Positions 29,269 through 38,575 of a DNA stretch of 42,183 nucleotides are shown here, in pieces. The notes beneath the pieces are model-generated. The model saw nothing but the letters and a program-made list of their open reading frames with translations, was not told the origin of the DNA and searched no databases. Source of the DNA: Oscillospiraceae bacterium (GTDB lineage: Bacteria > Bacillota > Clostridia > Oscillospirales > Oscillospiraceae); contig JAFQZI010000027.1 in assembly GCA_017406005.1 (NCBI GenBank), positions 1-42,183 of the forward strand, written 5' to 3'. A program made the translations under genes and the position numbers. How positions within the stretch are numbered: position 1 is the first letter of the stretch; the number at the start of each line of letters is the position of its first letter.

Positions 29269-29274
29269 CAGGGC

Positions 29275-29380
29275 GTCTTCAGGGCAGGGTGAAATTCCCG
29301 ACCGGCGGTAAAAAGTCCGCGAGCCGAAAGGCATGATCCGGTGTGATTCCGGGACCGACAGTAAAGTCTGGATGGAAGAA
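29275..29380 (+). promoter_or_regulatory. FMN riboswitch (RFN element)
   Basis: The conserved blocks are all present in order: AGGGCAGGGTGAAATTCCCG, ACCGGCGGTA, AGTCCGCGAGCC, GATCCGGTGTGATTCCGG and ACCGACAGTAAAGTCTGGATG. P1 is closed by TCTTC (29276-29280) and GAAGA (29375-29379). FMN binding should favour the terminator at 29417 and so shut off riboflavin uptake. Confidence 0.97.
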
Positions 29381-29416
29381 GATGGAGGATTCAATTCCAT
29401 ACTGTCTTCCTGCCTG

Positions 29417-29465: not shown

Positions 29466-30128
29466 ATGAAAGAAAACAAGTTTTCCACCAGGTACATGGC
29501 TGCAGCGGCTATGTTCTCGGCACTGTCGTTCGTTGCGGTTTTGCTGGCCAAGGTCATCCCCAATGTTGCGGGATTTCTGAGCTACGAGCCAAAGGATGCG
29601 GTGATTGTGATCGCCGGGCTTTTATACGGGCCTCTGACGAGCGTGCTCATCTCGGTGATCGTATCCTTTATCGAGATGATCACCATCAGCACCACAGGCC
29701 CTTACGGATTGCTGATGAATGTGGTATCCACCTGTGCGTTTGCTGTGCCTGCTGCCTGGTTTTACCAGAAGCACCGCACCCAGAAAGGTGCAGTGATCGG
29801 GCTTGCAATCGGCGTCATCACGATGGTTGTGGCCATGCTTCTCTGGAACTACATCATCACACCGTTTTATATGGGAGTTCCACGGTCGACGGTTGCAGGG
29901 ATGCTGATGAGTGTGTTTCTCCCCTTCAACCTCATCAAGGGAGGGATCAATGCAGCACTGACGCTTCTGCTGTACAAACCTGTGGTCGGGGCCCTGCGCA
30001 AGGCCGGGCTTGCAAAGCCGAGCAGCAGCGGGACGAAAAGCAGCTTCAGCCTCGGATTCACGCTGTTTGCGCTCGCGGTCCTGATCACATTCGTACTGCT
30101 GTTCCTTGTGATGATCGGGGTTCTGTAA
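29466..30128 (+). CDS. ribU: Riboflavin transporter RibU (ECF S component)
   Basis: A 220-residue membrane protein with about six helices. The N-terminus KFSTRYMAAAAMFSALSFVA carries the AxxxA helix used by ECF S components to bind the shared transport module. FLSYEPKDAVIVIAGLLYGP is the RibU ligand region, and ISTTGPYGLLMNVVSTCAF follows. It brings riboflavin into the cell using the common EcfAAT energy module encoded elsewhere. The FMN riboswitch upstream supports the substrate. AGGAGG at 29452-29457 is well placed before the ATG at 29466. Confidence 0.95.
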   Translation: MKENKFSTRYMAAAAMFSALSFVAVLLAKVIPNVAGFLSYEPKDAVIVIAGLLYGPLTSVLISVIVSFIEMITISTTGPYGLLMNVVSTCAFAVPAAWFYQKHRTQKGAVIGLAIGVITMVVAMLLWNYIITPFYMGVPRSTVAGMLMSVFLPFNLIKGGINAALTLLLYKPVVGALRKAGLAKPSSSGTKSSFSLGFTLFALAVLITFVLLFLVMIGVL

Positions 30129-30130
30129 AG

Positions 30131-30205
30131 GCGCTTCGTTATAAGTGCTTCCTGATACTCGCGAAGACCACATTGTACCTCGCCTTTAATGCTCTGTCGC
30201 GAGTT
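30131..30205 (+). repeat. Dispersed palindromic repeat, copy D
   Basis: The left box GCGCTTCGTTATAAGTGC starts 3 bases after the ribU stop. The hairpin arms are ACTCGCGA (30157-30164) and TCGCGAGT (30197-30204). Compared with copies A-C the terminal G-C pair has become A-T, a compensatory change that keeps the stem. Confidence 0.78.
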
Positions 30206-30298
30206 ATACTAAAGAGTAAACAGTCATTCTTGACAGGAATGAACAGTTTTCATAAAAACAGAAAGATTTTCCGGGATATTTCCGTTTGTTTTTTCATC

Positions 30299-30327
30299 TT
30301 GACAAAAAAACGGGATTGGGTTATAGT
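30299..30327 (+). promoter_or_regulatory. Promoter of the aromatic amino acid operon
   Basis: TTGACA (30299-30304) and TATAGT (30322-30327) are separated by exactly 17 bases. The start is near 30334, about 26 bases before the leader peptide. Just upstream (30218-30249) lies an imperfect inverted repeat that could be an operator. Confidence 0.85.
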
Positions 30328-30359
30328 TTGACCAATCTGAAAAAGTTGGAGATTCCGTG

Positions 30360-30419
30360 ATGAATTCCGTATTCTTTTTTGCATCCTATTATTATTACTT
30401 TACCAGCTCCCGCGGGTAA
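30360..30419 (+). CDS. Phe/Tyr leader peptide of the aro operon attenuator
   Basis: A 19-codon frame, MNSVFFFASYYYYFTSSRG, ends in TAA. It contains three Phe in a row, four Tyr in a row and one more Phe; eight of 19 residues are aromatic and none is Trp. A GTTGGAG ribosome binding site lies about 9 bases upstream. It sits between a strong promoter and an intrinsic terminator, directly ahead of DAHP synthase, in an operon that holds both tyrA and pheA. Ribosome stalling at these codons when charged tRNA-Phe or tRNA-Tyr is short should allow antitermination. The composition and position together make chance very unlikely. Confidence 0.9.
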   Translation: MNSVFFFASYYYYFTSSRG

Positions 30420-30481
30420 GGATAATTTGTGGTGCAAAAAAGAGAAATTAAGTCTTTTGCCGCACAGGTTATCCTGTGCGG
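30410..30481 (+). promoter_or_regulatory. Antiterminator candidates of the aro attenuator
   Basis: GGATAA (30420-30425), overlapping just after the leader stop, can pair with TTATCC (30469-30474) in the terminator loop and 3' arm, and CCGC (30410-30413) with GCGG (30478-30481). A second option pairs GCAAAA (30434-30439) with TTTTGC (30455-30460). A ribosome that reaches the stop codon would cover the first element; one stalled on the aromatic codons would leave it free. Confidence 0.6.
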
Positions 30482-30492
30482 TTTTTGTTTTT
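30460..30492 (+). terminator. Attenuator terminator of the aro operon
   Basis: CCGCACAGG (30460-30468) and CCTGTGCGG (30473-30481) form a perfect 9-base-pair stem with a 4-base loop, followed by TTTTTGTTTTT. It lies 41 bases after the leader stop and immediately before the aroF ribosome binding site. Confidence 0.93.
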
Positions 30493-30508
30493 GAGGAGGG
30501 CAAACAAA

Positions 30509-31510
30509 ATGATCGTAGTTTTAAAGCATGGTGTATCCGCCGAAAAGGTTTCGCAACTGATTGCATGGCTTGAGGCTCTGGGGCTCAAGATCCACATTTC
30601 CAACGGAGAATTCCAGACGGTTCTCGGGCTTGTCGGCGACACGTCGTCGGTTGATATTGACCTTGTGGAGAGCCTGGAAATGGTGGACAGCGTCAAACGC
30701 GTCACGGAACCGTTTAAGATGTGCAACCGGAAATTTCACCCCGAATCGATGGTGGTGGAAGTCGGCGATGTAAAAATCGGCGCGGGCAATTTCGTGATGA
30801 TCGCAGGTCCATGCTCGGTAGAGTCCGAAGAGCAGATCGTGACGGTGGCAAAAGCGGTGAAAGCAGCCGGTGCCAGCATGATGCGTGGCGGAGCTTTCAA
30901 ACCACGCACCTCCCCTTATGATTTTGCCGGCCTCAAGGCAGAAGGGTTGGAACTTCTCAAAATTGCACGCCGTGAAACCGGCCTGCCCATTGTAACGGAA
31001 CTGATGAATATCAATGACCTGCCCCTGTTTGACGATGTGGATGTGATCCAGATTGGGGCACGCAACATGCAGAACTTTGACCTTCTGCGCGAGCTCGGCC
31101 ATGTGAACAAGCCGATCCTCCTCAAGCGCGGGCTGGCAAACACCCTGAAAGAACTGCTGATGAGCGCAGAATACATCATGGCAAATGGCAATGAGCGCGT
31201 TATGCTCTGCGAGCGCGGGATCCGCACTTTCTCCGACTATACGCGCAATACGCTCGACCTCTCGGCTGTGCCGATGCTGCATGAACTGACACATCTGCCG
31301 ATTATTGTAGATCCGAGCCATGCGACCGGCATTGCAAGGATTGTGCCCCCGATGGCGCTCGCTGCCACAGCCAGCGGAGCAGACGGCCTGATCATTGAAG
31401 TGCATAATGATCCCATCCATGCCCTCTGCGACGGGGCACAGAGCCTTCGCCCCGAAGAGTTTGCAGACCTGGCCAAAAAGGTATTCGCCATCAGGGAGGT
31501 TGTGCAATGA
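30509..31510 (+). CDS. aroF: 3-deoxy-7-phosphoheptulonate synthase (DAHP synthase, type I beta)
   Basis: A 333-residue cytosolic enzyme that condenses phosphoenolpyruvate and erythrose 4-phosphate, the first step of the shikimate pathway. Residues 1-70 form the ferredoxin-like regulatory domain of the I-beta subgroup. The barrel has [53 protein letters not shown] and EVHNDP, covering the metal and substrate sites. GAGGAGGG lies 8 bases before the ATG at 30509. It is the first structural gene after the Phe/Tyr attenuator, and its stop overlaps tyrA (ATGA). Confidence 0.96.
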
Positions 31511-32349
31511 AAACCGGAACTGTCGGAATTGTGGGTCTGGGCCTGATCGGCGGAAGCTTTGCTAAAGCCTATCATGTGGCCGGCTGGAAAGTGCTTGCCA
31601 GCAACCGTACCGAACGCGTGCTGGAATTTGCCAAAATCGGCGGCGATGTGGATGACACTCTCACCAATGACAACATCGGAACCTGTGACCTTGTACTGCT
31701 GACGATCTTCCCTGAGGCGTCGATCCAGGCACTGAAGGGATTTGCGCCGTATATCGGGAAAAAGCCCCTGGTGATGGATTGCTGCGGTACCAAGCGGGTG
31801 GTCTGCGAAGCCGCCTTCCCGATGGCGGAAGAATACGGCTTCACCTTTGTCGGCGGGCACCCGATGGCAGGCACGCAGTATTCCGGATACAAGTATTCCC
31901 TGGTCGACATGTACAGAGACCAGCCGATGGTAATTGTGCCTCCCCGATTCGATGATATCTTTCTGCTTGACCGGGTGAAAGAGCTGCTTTCACCGGCAGG
32001 CTTTTCCCACTTCTCCGTGACGACTGCCGAAGCGCACGACAGGATGATCGCCTTTACTTCCCAGCTTGCCCATGTAGTTTCGTCCTCGTATGTCAAAAGC
32101 CCGACTGCCAGACAACACCACGGATTCTCTGCCGGGAGCTACAAGGATCTCACACGTGTGGCAAGGCTGAACCCTACGATGTGGGCAGAGCTGTTTCTGG
32201 AGAACAAGGATAACCTGATTTATGAGGTAGACACGCTGATTTCGCACCTCGCTGCCGTGCGGGACGCTATGGAAGAGAATGACAAGGAAAAGCTGATTGA
32301 TCTGCTGGAAGAAGGCAGACGGATCAAAGTGGAGATTGACGGAAGATGA
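31507..32349 (+). CDS. tyrA: Prephenate dehydrogenase
   Basis: A 280-residue enzyme that oxidises prephenate to 4-hydroxyphenylpyruvate for tyrosine synthesis. [17 protein letters not shown] is the NAD(P) fold, [13 protein letters not shown] the substrate motif with catalytic His, and [14 protein letters not shown] plus [19 protein letters not shown] follow in the helical domain. There is no C-terminal ACT domain, so feedback inhibition by Tyr may be weaker and the leader peptide may carry the regulation. The start overlaps the aroF stop, and the stop overlaps the aroB start. Confidence 0.95.
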
Positions 32350-33395
32350 GATGCGTACCGGTAAATGCCCCCTCCGGGCAGTATCAGGTGAAGATCGGCG
32401 CCGGGCTGCTGCCTTCTGTCGGAAGAGAAGTTACAGCATGCACCAAAGCCAGACGCTGTGCCGTGGTTGCAGGGGAAAACGTCTTCCCTCTTTACGGTGA
32501 AACCGTTCTGGAAAGCCTCCGCAGTGCCGGGCTGGAAGCCATGCCGATGGTCATCCCTGCGGGAGAGCAGACCAAGTGCCTTCAGCGCTACGGAGAACTG
32601 CTCACCTTCCTGGCGGAAAACCGTTTTACCCGCAGCGACTGTATTGTGGCACTCGGCGGAGGTGTAACGGGAGATCTCTCCGGCTTCACGGCAGCAACCT
32701 ATCAGCGGGGTATCCCGTATGTGCAGGTGCCGACGACACTTCTGGCAGCCGTGGATTCCTCCGTGGGAGGTAAAACGGCCATTGACCTGCCGCAGGGAAA
32801 AAACCAGGTGGGAGCGTTCTACCAACCTGCGCTCGTTCTTTGCGACACGGATACCCTATCCACGCTCCCCGAACGGGAACTGAAGGCAGGGTATGCGGAA
32901 GTGATCAAATATGCCGTGCTTGGAGATCCGGCGCTGTTTAAAACGCTGCAACGCGGAAATGCGGATCTGCCCGCTGTTATTGAGACCTGCGTGCGCTGCA
33001 AGGCGGACATCGTTGCAGAAGACGAACAGGACCTCGGCAGGAGAAGGCTGCTGAACCTCGGCCATACCTTCGGCCATGCAGTGGAAAGCAGAAGTGCCTA
33101 TTCCCTGCTTCACGGGGAAGCTGTTGCCATTGGGATGGCAATGATCTGCCGGGCCGCGGAGAAAAACGGGATGCTCTCCGCTTCCGACCGGGATGCCGTG
33201 ATCAGCCTGCTCCATGCAACCGGCCTGCCGACGGAAACGGACTTTTCTGCCGTAGAACTGTATGACACACTGCTGCTGGACAAGAAGTATTCGGGCGGAA
33301 AGCTGCATTTGATCGTCCCCTGTGCCATTGGGGAATGCAGGATCGTTCCTGTCTCTCCGGACGAACTGCGCGGATGGCTGGAGAAAGGGTTTTGA
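32346..33395 (+). CDS. aroB: 3-dehydroquinate synthase
   Basis: A 349-residue NAD- and zinc-dependent enzyme that makes 3-dehydroquinate from DAHP. VALGGGVTGDLSGFTAATY, VPTTLLAAVDSSVGGKTAID and GKNQVGAFYQP form the NAD and phosphate sites. LNLGHTFGHAVE and LLHGEAVAIGM supply zinc His residues. Length is normal. It starts in an ATGA overlap with tyrA. A half-copy-like palindrome (33400-33407) lies directly after the stop, in the only real gap (61 bases) of the operon. Confidence 0.96.
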   Translation: MRCVPVNAPSGQYQVKIGAGLLPSVGREVTACTKARRCAVVAGENVFPLYGETVLESLRSAGLEAMPMVIPAGEQTKCLQRYGELLTFLAENRFTRSDCIVALGGGVTGDLSGFTAATYQRGIPYVQVPTTLLAAVDSSVGGKTAIDLPQGKNQVGAFYQPALVLCDTDTLSTLPERELKAGYAEVIKYAVLGDPALFKTLQRGNADLPAVIETCVRCKADIVAEDEQDLGRRRLLNLGHTFGHAVESRSAYSLLHGEAVAIGMAMICRAAEKNGMLSASDRDAVISLLHATGLPTETDFSAVELYDTLLLDKKYSGGKLHLIVPCAIGECRIVPVSPDELRGWLEKGF

Positions 33396-33456: not shown

Positions 33457-34716
33457 ATGGCGATTAAAATTATTCCTCCCGGAAAACGGATGGGGACGGT
33501 GAAGATTCCGTCTTCCAAGTCGGTTGTGCATCGGCTGCTGATCTGCGCCGCTTTGGGAAGCAGCCCCGTACGCATCGGCTTTGACGGGCTGTCGAAGGAT
33601 ATCGCCGCCACGGCTTCCTGTCTGCAGGCACTGGGAACGGGGATTACTGTGGAAAAATCCGCCATCACTGTGCAGCCGAACAGCATTGCAGCAGGAGACG
33701 TGCTTCTCCCCTGCGGAGAAAGCGGTTCCACCCTGCGATTTCTCCTGCCGGTAGCCGGCGTGCTGGGAGCGAAGGGCTGCTTTCATATGGAAGGCCGCCT
33801 CCCGGAGCGCCCGATGCACCCTTTTGAGGAGCTTCTGCGGCTGCATGGGATGGAGGTAACCAGGGAAGGTTCTGCCCTGCATTTCGGTGGAAAGCTTCGC
33901 AGCGGAGACTATCCTCTCGCAGGGGATATCTCGTCCCAGTACTTTTCCGGGCTTCTGATGGCGCTTCCTCTTGCGGAGGGAGGCAGCCGAGTCCTGCCGG
34001 AAGGCAGGCTGGAATCCGAAGGATATATCCAAATGACGGAGGATGCTCTTGCGCTCGCAGGCATCAAGTTTTCCAAACCGGCAGAAACAGCCTGGGAGAT
34101 CCCGGGCAGGCAGCAGTTTGCACTCCCCTCTTCGCTCTCCGCAGAGGGTGACTGGTCCAACGCGGCTTTCTTCCTCTGTATGGGGGCGCTTTCGGAAAAA
34201 GGCGTTTCCGTCTGCGGGCTGAACCCCTCTTCTTCGCAGGGAGACCGGGCAGTCCTTGAGATTCTGCGCTGCTTCGGGGCAGAGATCATCGAATCTTCTT
34301 CGGAAGCGGGAGTTGTGACTGCCCGGCGCGGAGCACTTCGCCCCACCGTGATCGACGCCTCTTCCGTGCCGGACCTGGTGCCTGTGCTGGCTATCCTCTC
34401 CTGCGGAGCCGTCGGAGAGACGCGGATCACCCATGCGCAAAGACTCCGCATGAAGGAATCCGACCGGCTTGCAGCAACGGCAAAACTGATCTCCGATCTC
34501 GGAGGAAACGCCGAAGAGCTGCCTGACGGGCTGGTCATTCACGGCACGGGTTCGCTTCTCGGCGGTATGGCAGAAACCTGCAACGACCACCGCATCGCCA
34601 TGAGTGCAGCTGTAGCTGCCTGTCTCTGCCGGGAACCGGTGACCGTGCAGGGAGCACAATGTGTGGAAAAATCCTATCCCGCTTTCTGGGATGATTTTGA
34701 GAGGTGTACAGGATGA
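33457..34716 (+). CDS. aroA: 3-phosphoshikimate 1-carboxyvinyltransferase (EPSP synthase)
   Basis: A 419-residue enzyme that adds the enolpyruvyl group to shikimate 3-phosphate. SSKSVVHRLLICAALG, CGESGSTLRFLLPVAG, GRLPERPMHPFEELL and SSQYFSGLLMALPLAEG are the substrate-binding loops. ESDRLAATA and CNDHRIAMSAAVAAC lie in the C-terminal half. The CGESGSTLRF loop keeps the residues common in sensitive enzymes, though class cannot be settled by eye. An AGGGTGAAG region precedes the ATG. Its stop overlaps aroC. Confidence 0.96.
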   Translation: MAIKIIPPGKRMGTVKIPSSKSVVHRLLICAALGSSPVRIGFDGLSKDIAATASCLQALGTGITVEKSAITVQPNSIAAGDVLLPCGESGSTLRFLLPVAGVLGAKGCFHMEGRLPERPMHPFEELLRLHGMEVTREGSALHFGGKLRSGDYPLAGDISSQYFSGLLMALPLAEGGSRVLPEGRLESEGYIQMTEDALALAGIKFSKPAETAWEIPGRQQFALPSSLSAEGDWSNAAFFLCMGALSEKGVSVCGLNPSSSQGDRAVLEILRCFGAEIIESSSEAGVVTARRGALRPTVIDASSVPDLVPVLAILSCGAVGETRITHAQRLRMKESDRLAATAKLISDLGGNAEELPDGLVIHGTGSLLGGMAETCNDHRIAMSAAVAACLCREPVTVQGAQCVEKSYPAFWDDFERCTG

Positions 34717-35783
34717 GCAGTACCTTTATCGGTCGCAGCCTTCGGCTTTCGATTTTCGGGCAGAGCCATTCCGAAGCCATCGGCATGACGCTGGACGGCC
34801 TGCCTGCAGGCATCCCGGTGGACAGAGACGCGCTGCAGGTCTTTCTGAACCGGCGTGCCCCGGGCCGGGCAAAATGGTCAACATCGCGCCGGGAGGAGGA
34901 TAAACCGGAGTTCCTGTGCGGGCTGAAGGATGACTGCACCTGCGGAGCTCCGCTCACAGCCGTTATCCGCAATACCAACATAAGAAGTGCGGACTACTCT
35001 GCGCTCAAGGTTCTGCCGAGGCCGGGCCATGCGGATTATACCGCCGAGCAGAAGTACGGCGGATATCAGGACTACAGCGGGGGCGGGCACTTTTCCGGCC
35101 GGCTGACGGCACCGCTGTGCATTGCCGGCGGCATTCTCCTGCAGGAGCTGGACCGGCACGGCATCACGGTTGATGCGAGAATATGCTCGGTTGCAGGCAT
35201 ACGCGATGAAAGCCCGTTTCTCTCCCCTGTGAAAGACAAGGCTTTTCCGGTTTCCGATGATGAGATCGGAGAGCGCATGCAGCAGGCCATTGAAGAAGCC
35301 CGTACGGAAGGAGACTCCGTCGGAGGGGTAGTCGAATGCGTCATACGCGGTCTCCCCTGCGGAATCGGCGATCCGCTTTTTGACGGGCTGGAGAACCAGA
35401 TTGCACGGCTCATCTTTGCGGTGCCGGCCGTAAAGGGCATTGAATTCGGTGCCGGATTTTCGTCTGCCGAGATGCGAGGCAGCGAGAATAACGATCCTTT
35501 CTGCGTCAGAAACGGCAAAGTGGAAACTGTGACCAACCATTGCGGCGGAATTCTCGGCGGCATTTCGAACGGGATGCCCGTGCTATTCCGTGCAGCTTTT
35601 AAACCGACACCTTCAATTGCAAAACCGCAGCAGACCGTCAATCTCCGGACAATGGAAGAGGAAACGCTTTGCATTACCGGCCGCCATGATCCCTGCATCG
35701 TTCCGCGGGCAGTGCCCGTTGTGGAAGCCGCTGCAGCAGTGGCAGTTTATGATCTGATTCTGGGGGAACAGCTATGGAATTAA
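34713..35783 (+). CDS. aroC: Chorismate synthase
   Basis: A 356-residue FMN-dependent enzyme that converts EPSP to chorismate. IFGQSHSEAIGMTLDGLPAG, RPGHADYTAEQKYGGYQDYS, GGHFSGRLTAPLCIAGGI and RHDPCIVPRAVPVVEA are conserved. The ATG at 34713 overlaps the aroA stop (ATGA) and has GAGAGG 8 bases upstream; a GTG at 34704 in frame is less likely. The 3' end overlaps pheA by 10 bases. It needs reduced FMN, which links this pathway loosely with the nearby riboflavin uptake gene. Confidence 0.96.
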   Translation: MSSTFIGRSLRLSIFGQSHSEAIGMTLDGLPAGIPVDRDALQVFLNRRAPGRAKWSTSRREEDKPEFLCGLKDDCTCGAPLTAVIRNTNIRSADYSALKVLPRPGHADYTAEQKYGGYQDYSGGGHFSGRLTAPLCIAGGILLQELDRHGITVDARICSVAGIRDESPFLSPVKDKAFPVSDDEIGERMQQAIEEARTEGDSVGGVVECVIRGLPCGIGDPLFDGLENQIARLIFAVPAVKGIEFGAGFSSAEMRGSENNDPFCVRNGKVETVTNHCGGILGGISNGMPVLFRAAFKPTPSIAKPQQTVNLRTMEEETLCITGRHDPCIVPRAVPVVEAAAAVAVYDLILGEQLWN

Positions 35784-36916
35784 AGAACTATCGCGACCAG
35801 CTTGACCGGATTGACAGCCAGATCCTCTCTCTCTTTTCGGAGCGCATGGCTATCTCCGGAGAAATTGCTCAGTGGAAACAGGAAAACGGCATGCCCGTGC
35901 TGGATGTGAGGCGTGAAAAGGAAAAGCTCCGCACAATGGAAGAGAAGAGCCCGGAAGATCTCGGAGAATATTCGGTATCCCTCTTTTCCCTGATCATGGA
36001 GCTTTCCCGCAGCTATCAGAACCGGATTCTCCATCCTGCCAGCCCGGAGACCGCTGCAATTGAAAAAGCGCTGAAAGAAACGCCTCAGCTCTTCCCGGAG
36101 ACAGCGTTTGTCGCCTGCCAGGGGGTGGAAGGGGCGTATTCCGGAATCGCCTGTGAAAAGCTCTTCAAGCGGCCGAACATTTTTTATTTTTCGACTTTTG
36201 ACGCGGTTTTCTCCGCCATTGAAAAGGGGCTTTGCCGATACGGTGTCATCCCGGTGGAAAATAGCACGGCTGGCACGGTCAACGCGGTTTATGACCTGAT
36301 GCGGAAGCACGACTTTCGCATTGTGCGTTCGGTGCGCGTAAAGGTTGACCACAACCTGCTCGTACGCCCCGGCACAAAGCTCGAGGATATCCGTGAAATC
36401 TATTCCCATGCGCAGGCTATTGCGCAGTGCTCTGCTTTTGTGCAGAGCCTGCCGAACGTCAAGGTTATCCCCTGTGAAAACACGGCAACTGCGGCTAAGA
36501 TGGTTGCCGAGTCGAACGACCCGGGCATCGCCGCACTTTCCTCTCGCGCATGCAGCAAGCTGTACAATCTGGAAATCCTGAAAGCTGACGTGCAGGATTC
36601 CGGCAACAACCACACGCGTTTTATCTGCATTTCCAAGGATCTGGAAATCTATCCGGGAGCCGACCGCACCAGTTTGATGATGGTGCTTCCGCACGAGCAG
36701 GGCTCTCTATACAAACTTCTCTCCCGCTTTAATGCGCTCGGGATCAACCTAACCAAGCTGGAAAGCCGCCCGATGCCGGAAAGAAGCTTTGAATTTATGT
36801 TTTATTTCGATCTCGACACTTCCGTTTATTCTCCGCGCTTTATCCAGCTGATGGGAGAACTGGGAGACATTTCGGAAGAACACGAATATCTCGGCAGTTA
36901 CAGTGAGGTGATCTGA
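35774..36916 (+). CDS. pheA: Bifunctional chorismate mutase/prephenate dehydratase (P-protein)
   Basis: A 380-residue bifunctional enzyme that turns chorismate into prephenate and then phenylpyruvate. Residues 1-90 are an AroQ-type mutase (YRDQLDRIDSQILSLFSERM). Residues about 105-285 are the dehydratase with GVEGAYSGIACEKLF, PVENSTAGTVNAVYDLM and NNHTRFICIS, including the catalytic Thr. An ACT domain follows (about 300-375; EQGSLYKLLSRFNALGINLT, KLESRP), the site of Phe feedback. The start lies within the end of aroC. aroEK begins one base after the stop. Confidence 0.96.
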   Translation: MELKNYRDQLDRIDSQILSLFSERMAISGEIAQWKQENGMPVLDVRREKEKLRTMEEKSPEDLGEYSVSLFSLIMELSRSYQNRILHPASPETAAIEKALKETPQLFPETAFVACQGVEGAYSGIACEKLFKRPNIFYFSTFDAVFSAIEKGLCRYGVIPVENSTAGTVNAVYDLMRKHDFRIVRSVRVKVDHNLLVRPGTKLEDIREIYSHAQAIAQCSAFVQSLPNVKVIPCENTATAAKMVAESNDPGIAALSSRACSKLYNLEILKADVQDSGNNHTRFICISKDLEIYPGADRTSLMMVLPHEQGSLYKLLSRFNALGINLTKLESRPMPERSFEFMFYFDLDTSVYSPRFIQLMGELGDISEEHEYLGSYSEVI

Positions 36917-36917
36917 C

Positions 36918-38138
36918 GTGCGATGCGGACTGCTCGGAGAAAAACTCGGGCACAGCTATTCCCCTCAAATCCATGCCGAACTGGCGGATTACGAATATCT
37001 CCTCTATGAAAAAGCCCCGGAAGAAGTGGAAGAATTCGTCCTGCGGGGAGACTGGCACGGGCTGAATGTAACCATCCCTTACAAGAAAACCGTAGTGCCC
37101 TTCTGTGATGAACTCTCGGAGACGGCAGAAGTCGTAGGAAGTGTGAACACGCTTCTCCGCCGGGAGGACGGCACGATCTTCGGGGACAACACCGACGCCT
37201 TCGGCTTTGAAACACTGCTGCGGAGGACATTCCCGGCTGATCTGTCCGGAAAAAAAGCCCTGGTGCTGGGCACGGGCGGAGCTTCGGTAACGGTCTGTGC
37301 CGTGCTGAGGAAACACGGAGCAGACGTGATCTCCGTATCCCGCAGCGGTGAAAACAACTACGGCAATCTTGAACGGCATGCAGATGTATCTCTGCTTGTC
37401 AATACCACGCCGCTCGGGATGTATCCCAACAACGGTACGAAAGCCGTGGATCTGGCAGCCTTCCCCACGCTGGAAGCCGTGCTGGACGTTGTTTACAACC
37501 CGGCACGCACCGCGCTGCTGCTCCAGGCGGAGGAGCTTGGCATCCCCTGTGCAGGCGGGCTGACAATGCTCGTCGCCCAGGCAAAACGAAGCGCCGAGAT
37601 CTTCCTAGGGCGGGAACTGCCGGACAGCGAGCTTGTACGCATCACAAAACTGCTCTCACAAACCATGCAGAATATCATCCTGATCGGTATGCCGGGTTCG
37701 GGGAAATCCTGCATTGCGAATCTGCTTGCCGATCGCCTCGGCAGACCCTGCATGGAAGCCGATGCCGAACTGGAGAAGGCAGCCGGAAAATCCATCCCCG
37801 AAATCTTCGAGCAGGAGGGAGAAGCCGGATTCCGTGCAAGGGAAACCGAAATTCTTGCCGCCCTCGGCAAGCTCTCCGGCATCGTCCTTTCGACCGGAGG
37901 CGGCTGTGTGACCCGGCCGGAAAACTATCCCCTGCTGCACCAGAACGGCACCATCTTCCGGCTGGACCGCGAGCTGGACCACCTCGCCAGAGAGGGCAGA
38001 CCGCTTTCACGCAACGCAGACCTGAAGCAGATGTTTGCCGTCCGCGATCCTCTCTATGAACGTTTCGCCGACTACACCGTCGACAACAACGGCGAACCCG
38101 AACAAACCGTGCAGACCATTCTGGAGGTCCTCCAATGA
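36918..38138 (+). CDS. Shikimate dehydrogenase-shikimate kinase fusion
   Basis: A 406-residue fusion of two consecutive pathway enzymes. Residues 1-250 are AroE: MRCGLLGEKLGHSYSPQIHA, NVTIPYKKTVVPF with catalytic Lys, DNTDAFGFETLL with catalytic Asp, LGTGGASVTVCAVL for NADPH, and NTTPLGMYP. Residues about 252-406 are AroK: IILIGMPGSGKSCIANLLA (Walker A), FRARETEILAAL, LSTGGGCVTRPEN and REGRPLSRN. It reduces 3-dehydroshikimate and phosphorylates shikimate. GTG start with GAGGTG about 10 bases upstream. The stop overlaps aroQ. Domain boundary has no long linker. Confidence 0.95.
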   Translation: MRCGLLGEKLGHSYSPQIHAELADYEYLLYEKAPEEVEEFVLRGDWHGLNVTIPYKKTVVPFCDELSETAEVVGSVNTLLRREDGTIFGDNTDAFGFETLLRRTFPADLSGKKALVLGTGGASVTVCAVLRKHGADVISVSRSGENNYGNLERHADVSLLVNTTPLGMYPNNGTKAVDLAAFPTLEAVLDVVYNPARTALLLQAEELGIPCAGGLTMLVAQAKRSAEIFLGRELPDSELVRITKLLSQTMQNIILIGMPGSGKSCIANLLADRLGRPCMEADAELEKAAGKSIPEIFEQEGEAGFRARETEILAALGKLSGIVLSTGGGCVTRPENYPLLHQNGTIFRLDRELDHLAREGRPLSRNADLKQMFAVRDPLYERFADYTVDNNGEPEQTVQTILEVLQ

Positions 38139-38575
38139 AATTTCTGATCATCAACGGCCCCAACCTCAATATGCTCGGCCTCCGGGAACCGGACATTTAC
38201 GGTAAGCAGGATTTTGCCGCCCTGGAGGAATTTATCCGCGAAACCTGCCGTGCAGAGGGAGTCGAGCCGGTTCTCTTCCAGTCCAATCACGAGGGGGCCA
38301 TCGTCGATGCCATTCAGGCAGCCTACGGAGAGGTCGACGGCATCGTGATCAATCCGGCTGCCTATACGCACACCAGTGTGGCCATCCTCGATGCGCTCAA
38401 AGCTGTGAGGATCCCCGCAGTTGAGGTTCACCTCTCCGATATTTCCAAGCGTGAAAGCTTCCGGCAGATCTCCTACGCAGGCATGGCATGCATCAAAAGC
38501 TTTGTGGGCCTCGGATTTGAAGGCTACCGCCAAGCGATCCTGTACCTGAAAGAATACCTGTCCGATAAGACTTGA
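38135..38575 (+). CDS. aroQ: 3-dehydroquinate dehydratase, type II
   Basis: A 146-residue type II dehydroquinase that makes 3-dehydroshikimate by trans elimination. INGPNLNMLGLREPDIYG contains the catalytic Tyr loop, QSNHEGAIVDAIQAAY follows, NPAAYTHTSVAILDAL has the substrate Asn and His region, and EVHLSDISKRESFR supplies the catalytic His. Length is typical. It starts in an overlap with the AroEK stop and is the last gene of the operon. A long hairpin (38604-38650) follows. Confidence 0.97.
   Translation: MKFLIINGPNLNMLGLREPDIYGKQDFAALEEFIRETCRAEGVEPVLFQSNHEGAIVDAIQAAYGEVDGIVINPAAYTHTSVAILDALKAVRIPAVEVHLSDISKRESFRQISYAGMACIKSFVGLGFEGYRQAILYLKEYLSDKT

Follow-up and report, generated by a model that had tools for sequence, protein, structure and literature searches.

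The window analysed here is a contig of 42,183 nucleotides (nt) from an Oscillospiraceae bacterium (GCA_017406005.1, contig JAFQZI010000027.1), and the region directly ahead of its aromatic amino acid (aro) operon very probably functions as a ribosome-mediated transcription attenuator with a leader peptide rich in phenylalanine and tyrosine (Phe/Tyr). Ribosome-mediated attenuation had been proposed in an earlier note on this DNA and is supported by conservation, by the covariation of three competing helices (1:2, 2:3 and 3:4) and by ribosome-masked folding. The parts, their conservation and the covariation are read from sequence, and the folding switch is computed.

Parts of the aroF leader and their conservation

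Direct reading of positions 30299-30511 ahead of aroF gave a promoter, a ribosome binding site (RBS), a leader open reading frame (ORF), an element designated strand 2 and a terminator, in that order (Table 1). The promoter has its -35 box TTGACA at 30299-30304 and its -10 box TATAGT at 30322-30327; it is strong, although not perfect as the earlier note had described it. The leader ORF consists of 19 codons, eight of them aromatic, and the portion termed strand 1 contains Phe codons at 30372-30380 and 30399-30401 and Tyr codons at 30387-30398. The terminator has the form CCGCACAGG-TTAT-CCTGTGCGG with nine Watson-Crick pairs and one G-U, is followed by TTTTTGTTTTT and is separated from the start codon of aroF by about 16 nt. 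The RBS, leader peptide, stop codon and nine-base-pair terminator with a T-run reported in that note are all present. A Phe/Tyr-rich ORF with an RBS, predicted to be translated, and a terminator between this ORF and the first gene are the features expected of a leader-peptide attenuator.

The predicted antiterminator is a single 18-nt helix of GGATAATTTGTGgtGCAA with TTGCcgCACAGGTTATCC, in which 16 of the 18 positions are paired including G-U. The hexamers GGATAA (30420-30425) and TTATCC (30469-30474) had been put forward as one of two antiterminator options; they lie at the positions given, and GCAA/TTGC lengthens their pairing into this one long helix. Strand 2 also pairs in the fold with the leader coding region, CTTTTTTGCATCC with GGTGCAAAAAAG and CTTTACC with GGTAAGG. 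The helix set 1:2, 2:3 and 3:4 is the classical attenuator arrangement. The folding energy of the window leader was -54.6 kcal/mol compared with -38.2 kcal/mol for shuffles (z -4.2), and 0/200 shuffles equalled it.

In the proposed mechanism, transcription would start near 30333 and the leader peptide would be translated at once. With both Phe-tRNA and Tyr-tRNA charged, the ribosome would reach the stop codon at 30417 and cover strand 2, the 3:4 terminator would form and the operon would be off. A ribosome waiting on the Phe/Tyr codons would cover strand 1 and leave strand 2 free for the 2:3 antiterminator, the terminator would be blocked and all eight genes would be transcribed. Ribosome-free RNA would form 1:2 and then terminate. 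We infer that tRNA charging drives this switch in the cell and that Tyr counts as well as Phe.

Table 1. Coordinates of the attenuator parts and operon genes in the window
Feature	Position	Strand	Basis or remark
Sigma-70-type promoter TTGACA-17-TATAGT	30299..30327	+	11/12 consensus matches; spacer 17 nt
Leader RBS (Shine-Dalgarno, SD) GGAG, 8 nt 5' of ATG	30348..30351	+	Direct reading
Leader peptide ORF MNSVFFFASYYYYFTSSRG, ATG 30360, stop TAA 30417-30419	30360..30419	+	Direct reading; relatives
Strand 1	30372..30404	+	Predicted to pair with strand 2 and stop region (1:2, anti-antiterminator); fold, native versus cross-species pairing
Strand 2 GGATAATTTGTGGTGCAA, immediately 3' of leader stop	30420..30437	+	18 nt; near-invariant in genus
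Strand 3 TTGCCGCACAGGTTATCC	30457..30474	+	Antiterminator partner of strand 2; also terminator 5' arm and loop
Intrinsic terminator (3:4) with T tract	30459..30492	+	Terminator scan; covariation
aroF, 3-deoxy-D-arabino-heptulosonate 7-phosphate (DAHP) synthase, ferredoxin-like N-domain	30509..31510	+	Pfam
tyrA, prephenate dehydrogenase	31507..32349	+	Pfam
aroB, 3-dehydroquinate synthase	32346..33395	+	Pfam
aroA, 5-enolpyruvylshikimate-3-phosphate (EPSP) synthase	33457..34716	+	Pfam
aroC, chorismate synthase	34704..35783	+	Pfam
pheA, chorismate mutase-prephenate dehydratase	35774..36916	+	Pfam
aroE-aroK fusion, shikimate dehydrogenase-shikimate kinase	36918..38138	+	Pfam
aroQ, type II dehydroquinase	38135..38575	+	Pfam

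A match to aroF was present in 82 of 102 genomes of the genus, and up to 350 nt of upstream sequence was read in 76 of these, the other six being omitted for a weak or cut match. By eye, the leader ORF and/or the strand-2 element was retained in 67 of the 76 regions, with leaders such as MKNFAFAAYYYYFTAKLR, MRAYFFTAYYYFTVSTR, MKAFAFASNYYYFFTGSLR and MNFFRFSAYYYYYYFTDSQ. The exact strand-2 pattern AAGGNNRATTTGTGRYGCAA occurred once each in 44/102 genus genomes, compared with 0 for the reversed control pattern. All 44 copies were located 67-339 nt upstream of aroF on the same strand, which indicates that where present the element is dedicated to the aro operon.

The covariation set comprised 77 sequences (the 76 and L176), of which 55 contained all parts by patterns; 22 were excluded as strand 2 was absent, diverged or outside the stretch, or the terminator was off pattern. 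Strand 2 and the terminator loop change jointly among the 55, as GGATAA/TTATCC, GGTCAA/TTGATCC, GGCTGA/TTCGGCC, GGCGAA/TTGCGCC and GGGTAA/TTACGCC, while six sequences (L020, L021, L064, L067, L069 and L070) pair poorly here. Duplex energies of native partners were compared with those of permuted cross-species partners in 5000 permutations. Native energies were -16.5 versus -14.6 kcal/mol for helix 2:3, -18.3 versus -15.4 for helix 3:4 and -15.5 versus -13.0 for helix 1:2, and in each case 0/5000 permutations were as good. The non-partner controls of strand 2 with 4 (1534/3000) and strand 1 with 4 (2720/3000) were clean. On this sequence comparison the mutually exclusive helices 1:2, 2:3 and 3:4 covary in the genus. 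An RNAalifold consensus of 21 sequences contained a CTTTAC/GTAAGG stem, a small hairpin within strand 2 and the terminator, with double changes in 4/21 pairs. The comparison of relatives proposed in the earlier note yielded both conserved Phe/Tyr runs before aroF and, in the genus, compensatory changes.

Several genus loci depart from the common layout. Four (L034, L042, L044, L048) retain the attenuator about 260-340 nt upstream of aroF with additional sequence between. The leaders of L055, L068 and L070 have diverged and are now Cys-rich (MAFMSCCYCYCLTVFVR, MTSVCCVDKYYYACCLFVR) or almost devoid of aromatic residues (MKCPFDRCRFILAAWMR); the terminator is retained in these three and a recognisable strand 2 in two of them. 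At L023, L076, L077 and L078, as well as L019 and L079, aroF is preceded by a different gene than in the window and by no leader peptide. The leaderless L023 and L076-L078 keep a promoter and a bare hairpin with a T tract (e.g. CTGCACGGGCCTTTCCTGTGCAG), and no clear terminator was seen upstream of aroF in L019 and L079.

Ribosome position and other readings of the leader

Equilibrium folding models were run with a ribosome mask of 15 nt on each side of the P-site base, moved codon by codon along the leader. Before strand 4 exists, the antiterminator probability over the 55 genus sequences was 0.70-0.74 for A-site offsets of -15 to -6 relative to the stop, which is the Phe/Tyr stretch, compared with 0.05 for a ribosome at the stop and 0.24 for ribosome-free RNA, when 1:2 forms (0.53). 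For the full transcript the terminator, at 0.83 with the ribosome on the stop codon, fell to 0.54-0.64 over offsets -10 to -6. At these offsets the Phe/Tyr frequency across leaders is 0.58-0.85, and the terminator-dip and Phe/Tyr-frequency profiles correlated over 16 positions (Spearman 0.69). In the window sequence the terminator dropped to 0.04-0.32 with a stall on YYYYF. Terminator loss exceeded 0.2 in 36 of the 55 sequences, the codon of strongest loss being Phe in 11 and Tyr in 15. Folding with the ribosome-covered segment, which the earlier note had proposed as a check, favoured the antiterminator on a Phe/Tyr stall and the terminator at the stop. Outside the genus, pairing of strand 3 with upstream sequence rose under the stall in 34/60 order, 24/43 named and 23/39 class sequences, compared with 16, 8 and 15 after shuffling of strand 2. 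The models suggest that ribosome position would select antiterminator or terminator in the genus, with a weak effect outside it.

A number of observations weigh against this interpretation. The leader is missing in nine of the 76 genus members (L019, L023, L076-L082), and some genus leaders (L008, L068, L070) have few aromatic codons. The lower 12-13 nt of helix 2:3 gave no covariation signal (2311/5000 permutations as good). The non-partner control of strand 1 with 3 beat permutation by 0.5 kcal/mol (12/3000; 11/3000 with the loop added), so relatedness would account for a little of the covariation signal, less than the three helices show. In the folding models the antiterminator was still at 0.72-0.73 at offsets -5 and -4, past the aromatic run, and the profile before strand 4 therefore does not by itself single out Phe/Tyr codons. 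In 10 of the 36 sequences with a terminator loss above 0.2, the strongest loss came with a stall at a codon other than Phe or Tyr. As the full terminator still wins at equilibrium in many relatives, the switch must be partly kinetic. Outside the genus a full-transcript terminator loss above 0.2 was rare (4/60 order, 7/43 named and 9/39 class; shuffled 4, 1 and 3); there the leader often extends into strand 2, an overlap that the simple masking test does not handle.

The identity of the signal is the point on which an alternative carries most weight. The same attenuator might sense one amino acid, either Phe or Tyr, with the codons for the other retained through common descent or because they pair with strand 2, and we regard this as a possibility to be taken seriously even if it is the less expected outcome. 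The AroR attenuator of Corynebacterium glutamicum, whose leader contains Phe-Tyr-Phe, is described in passages of the review PMC11802643 as answering Phe and not Tyr. The Tyr run TATTATTATTAC is itself able to base-pair with a portion of strand 2, and in the full-transcript model terminator loss was greater for Tyr stalls than for Phe stalls (0.23 versus 0.11). The gain in antiterminator before strand 4 was however about equal (Phe stalls 0.72, Tyr stalls 0.71), and all 187 unique leaders carry both residues in orders that vary between families, which argues against sensing of one amino acid. The earlier note had a single leader read Phe and Tyr together; the codons for both are there, and the sensing of Tyr is the part that we infer.

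The remaining alternatives fare less well. That the element is an arrest peptide, as TnaC is, or a small protein whose amino acid sequence rather than codon supply is decisive appears improbable. In some families the leaders end in a common motif such as [ST]xG[YF]F(C)C, but it is the Phe/Tyr content that is kept between families and not the order, length or C-terminus, and the YFT and final R conserved in the genus coincide with codons that pair around the stop (CTTTACY with GGTAAGG). Ten leaders tried matched nothing in Pfam and nothing convincingly in NCBIfam. The hairpin might simply end the transcript of the transporter gene upstream, aroF being expressed from its own promoter further down, which would fit the transporter-like ORF that ends at 30128 and the frequency of inter-operon terminators. 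This is very improbable, as the promoter and leader sit between that ORF and the terminator, a scan found no promoter-like plus-strand site from the terminator to the aroF start, and the terminator loop covaries with strand 2. Least credible of all is a T-box or other tRNA- or metabolite-binding leader with an ORF by chance: T-box matches exist elsewhere in the same genome and before trpE in relatives (both described below), but the ORF and its Phe/Tyr content are conserved, and no T-box (RF00230) was matched in 30200-30700 even at E up to 5; within what Rfam can detect, this reading is refuted for the window.

Phe/Tyr leaders across the order and class

Leaders were sought upstream of aroF by a rule requiring an SD sequence, 10-45 codons and at least six Phe/Tyr within 12 residues. 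The order sample consisted of 80 of the 155 matched genomes besides the window's own, mostly the top matches listed and with families spread, and 14 others (94 in total). The class sample consisted of the 29 best matches and 40 genomes chosen by family, one of which (L349) is cut short. The sets overlap in part (e.g. L175 is G010 and L279 is G131), and eight loci (L008, L198, L206, L232, L253, L263, L320 and L349) had less than 350 nt of upstream sequence.

The rule identified a leader before aroF in 44/76 genus regions, 63/94 regions of other genera and families of the order, 44/80 named loci, 20/29 nearest class matches and 21/39 of the wider class sample. Reverse-complement controls for the five sets gave 0, 1, 0, 0 and 0, shuffles gave at most 0.9%, and the same rule applied upstream of trpE returned a Phe/Tyr leader in 0/29. 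A random-stretch control for the named loci (12/800 with at least six Phe/Tyr) was not used, as its draws may include the aroF leader itself. The rule misses some leaders, such as L022, L032 and L033, which fail the SD pattern, and L008, which has only four aromatic residues. Phe and Tyr exceeded all other 189 amino acid pairs, with 151/250 regions compared with 81 for the next best pair, and the Phe plus Tyr fraction over 176 unique leaders was 0.322 in the leader frame versus 0.110 and 0.144 in the other two frames. A terminator was found 3' of the leader in 44/44 genus, 60/63 order, 43/44 named and 39/41 class regions; 92 of the 93 such terminators checked reached -10 kcal/mol, compared with two shuffled.

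Sampling outside the genus covered 54 families, and in 39 of these one or more genomes carried such a leader. The leader changes rapidly there, and its sequences differ from the genus type, as in MKNLMFAAFEYFYFYFYFYFTSKNRVKQFVLQTF, MTKNFAFAYFYFYFYFGK and MKNVLFAGTYYYFYFFKSEVKAIYAAKSVHS, and include those before aroF of Angelakisella massiliensis (L186; Clostridia, Oscillospiraceae; MNKFAFAAEYYFTFIFTFAYFSKGSLRLAAKGASC) and Bittarella massiliensis (L207; MNNAVSLSSVSYYGYRYLGYFYGAGVLSYGKVKRGRG). Every one of the 187 unique leaders with at least six Phe/Tyr in 12 contains both residues, where the rule requires a sum only, and the order of residues differs among families (YFYFYFYF, FFFASYYYYF, FSFSF). 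In 37 named leader loci with at least 4.8 kb of sequence counted from the start of aroF, the genes after aroF included aroB (31), aroA (30), aroC (28), tyrA (26) and pheA (6), with later genes mostly past the sequence span examined. Second copies of aroF had a Phe/Tyr leader in 6/20 cases (L317, L319, L320, L321, L324, L328). These copies were also considered as Trp-regulated paralogues; an ORF with two Trp among 12 residues, not in tandem, was seen in L323 alone.

Leaders of several families (L202, L229, L348, L353, L357, L359) have in common a C-terminal motif like SxGYF(C)C, for which an RNA hairpin, and not the peptide itself, may be responsible. Seven records titled Verrucomicrobia, Treponema, Kiritimatiellae or Planctomycetaceae (L208, L209, L217, L219, L221, L242, L247) encode an aroF 58-70% identical to that of the window, for which wrong bin names and transfer are the alternatives.

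The operon, tryptophan and known attenuators

The earlier note had placed eight genes of the common pathway and both branches under the attenuator, and Pfam assigns eight aro, tyrA and pheA genes (Table 1); their spacing suggests that they form one transcript. Between the terminator and the 3' end of aroQ the scan detected no promoter-like site on the plus strand, and the 11 terminator-like sites over 8.5 kb, the attenuator counted, were near chance (9.0 in shuffles, standard deviation 3.1). Upstream, a flavin mononucleotide (FMN) riboswitch (29271-29387; Rfam RF00050, 114.6 bits) precedes the transporter-like ORF, which from its sequence is probably a riboflavin energy-coupling factor (ECF) S component; the riboswitch was the only family above threshold when the whole window was searched with Rfam 15.

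No match to trpE (TIGR00564) was found in the window's genome and a single weak partial match in 101 genus genomes, compared with 14/14 known genomes in the control. So far as trpE tells, the operon therefore supplies Phe and Tyr and not Trp, in agreement with the suggestion that the lack of Trp codons matches a lack of trp genes; the association at the class level goes in the same direction. A first test of Trp codons against trpE in 80 order genomes was not significant (4/17 versus 4/41; threshold 5 Phe/Tyr). The test was enlarged by 69 class genomes, with any match at E 0.001 or better taken as trpE and G482, where trpE is in fragments, omitted. Any Trp in the leader occurred in 10/32 genomes with trpE versus 5/60 without (Fisher p 0.007), or 11/36 versus 7/63 at a threshold of 5 Phe/Tyr (p 0.03). 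Trp no more than two residues away from Phe/Tyr, a definition picked after the peptides had been viewed, occurred in 10/32 versus 2/60 (p 0.0003). By family, Trp beside the aromatic run was seen in 8/17 versus 2/28 (p 0.003; L349 omitted), these Trp tests being uncorrected for phylogeny. They hint that the codons of the leader track which products the cell makes.

The T-box was the expected control of amino acid genes in Clostridia according to the earlier note, which does not hold at aroF, where one of the 39 class-sample regions had a T-box above the strict Rfam threshold. The window's genome has four T-box matches, three of which lie below that threshold; the only one above it is beside a gene taken as valS from its sequence. 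Three of the matches (L091, L092, L093) precede this valS-like gene, a TrpB-like gene (TIGR01415, above cut-off) and a TrpX-like binding protein gene (below cut-off), possibly a Trp salvage regulon in a genome with no trpE match. In relatives, 6/20 trpE loci (of 29) had a T-box above threshold upstream, which with the leaders upstream of aroF suggests that some genomes use a T-box for Trp genes and a leader peptide for the Phe/Tyr operon. A short SD-preceded ORF with two Trp in 12 was present upstream of trpE in 4/29. In L299 a short ORF directly before trpE has tandem Trp codons (MLYTKRWWRPKRRLLKLNHPKK) with no terminator in view after it, possibly a Trp leader of another type.

The original study of the C. 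glutamicum AroR leader is reportedly that of Neshat et al. in 2014. Passages of PMC4046766 and PMC11802643, and more briefly PMC3890552 and PMC6892785, describe this Phe-Tyr-Phe leader before aroF, which resembles the window in that a leader peptide containing both Phe and Tyr codons precedes a DAHP synthase operon under ribosome-mediated attenuation, and differs in belonging to Actinobacteria, in having three aromatic residues and in its reported answer to Phe and not Tyr. The window leader by comparison has eight aromatic codons and eight genes including pheA and tyrA, with similar leaders in many Clostridia families. The predicted upstream ORF (uORF) attenuator uORFC-13-1 likewise combines an ORF with a terminator before aroF; it is described in the part of PMC8632094 seen from 24 Acholeplasma or environmental sequences only, with at least one Phe residue and no mention there of Tyr. 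No entry of that name was among the Rfam matches of the window leader. The E. coli pheL-pheA and pheST attenuators share the helix scheme, respond to Phe only and serve one branch. Their logic, in which a leader peptide reads the availability of charged Phe-tRNA, is the same according to passages of PMC11802643, which also has E. coli aroF repressed by TyrR. An attenuator sensing Tyr-tRNA has been hypothesised for E. coli aroF and an RNA motif predicted in Shewanella (PMC2659441, PMC8632094); attenuation at aroF and the Tyr-tRNA signal are alike, whereas these are Proteobacteria and the passages seen of PMC2659441 show no Phe/Tyr leader. The window matched Rfam Phe_leader RF01859 at 16.8 bits (E 3.8), far from the threshold of 55 bits, and Rfam 15 had no family at threshold on the attenuator in the window or in 21 leader-bearing class-sample regions.

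The best-known cases of leader-peptide attenuation come from Proteobacteria and those of T-boxes from Firmicutes, as outlined in parts of PMC2965389 and PMC9413887. These papers also describe His leader attenuators in Bacillus, Peptostreptococcaceae, Lutispora and Erysipelotrichales, a likeness as leader-peptide attenuation in Firmicutes where T-boxes are usual, and a difference in amino acid, in genes and in the few species concerned. For Actinobacteria, the portion of PMC1262725 seen noted no Phe or Tyr attenuator in 2005. No report of Phe/Tyr attenuators in Clostridia was found in the open-access full texts searched, a set outside which most subscription papers fall. The mechanism, rightly identified in the earlier note, is a known one; the Phe/Tyr form in the order and class, its breadth and the hint of a link between codon content and products are new as far as the literature was searched.

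We judge it an even chance that Phe/Tyr leader attenuation is ancient in the class Clostridia and predominates there over the T-box in controlling the shikimate-to-Phe/Tyr operon. This wider proposal includes a codon set that would follow which aromatic amino acids the host makes, with Trp codons in the runs of Trp makers and none where a lineage has no trpE, as in this genus; the Trp genes of the same genomes would keep their T-boxes. The spread of a Phe/Tyr attenuator before aroF through 39 of 54 families would redraw the map of leader peptides and T-boxes for a pathway that is central in Clostridia of the gut and rumen, and one RNA may integrate two amino acids. The 187 unique natural leader peptides provide material for testing whether codon content is tuned to the products of the cell.

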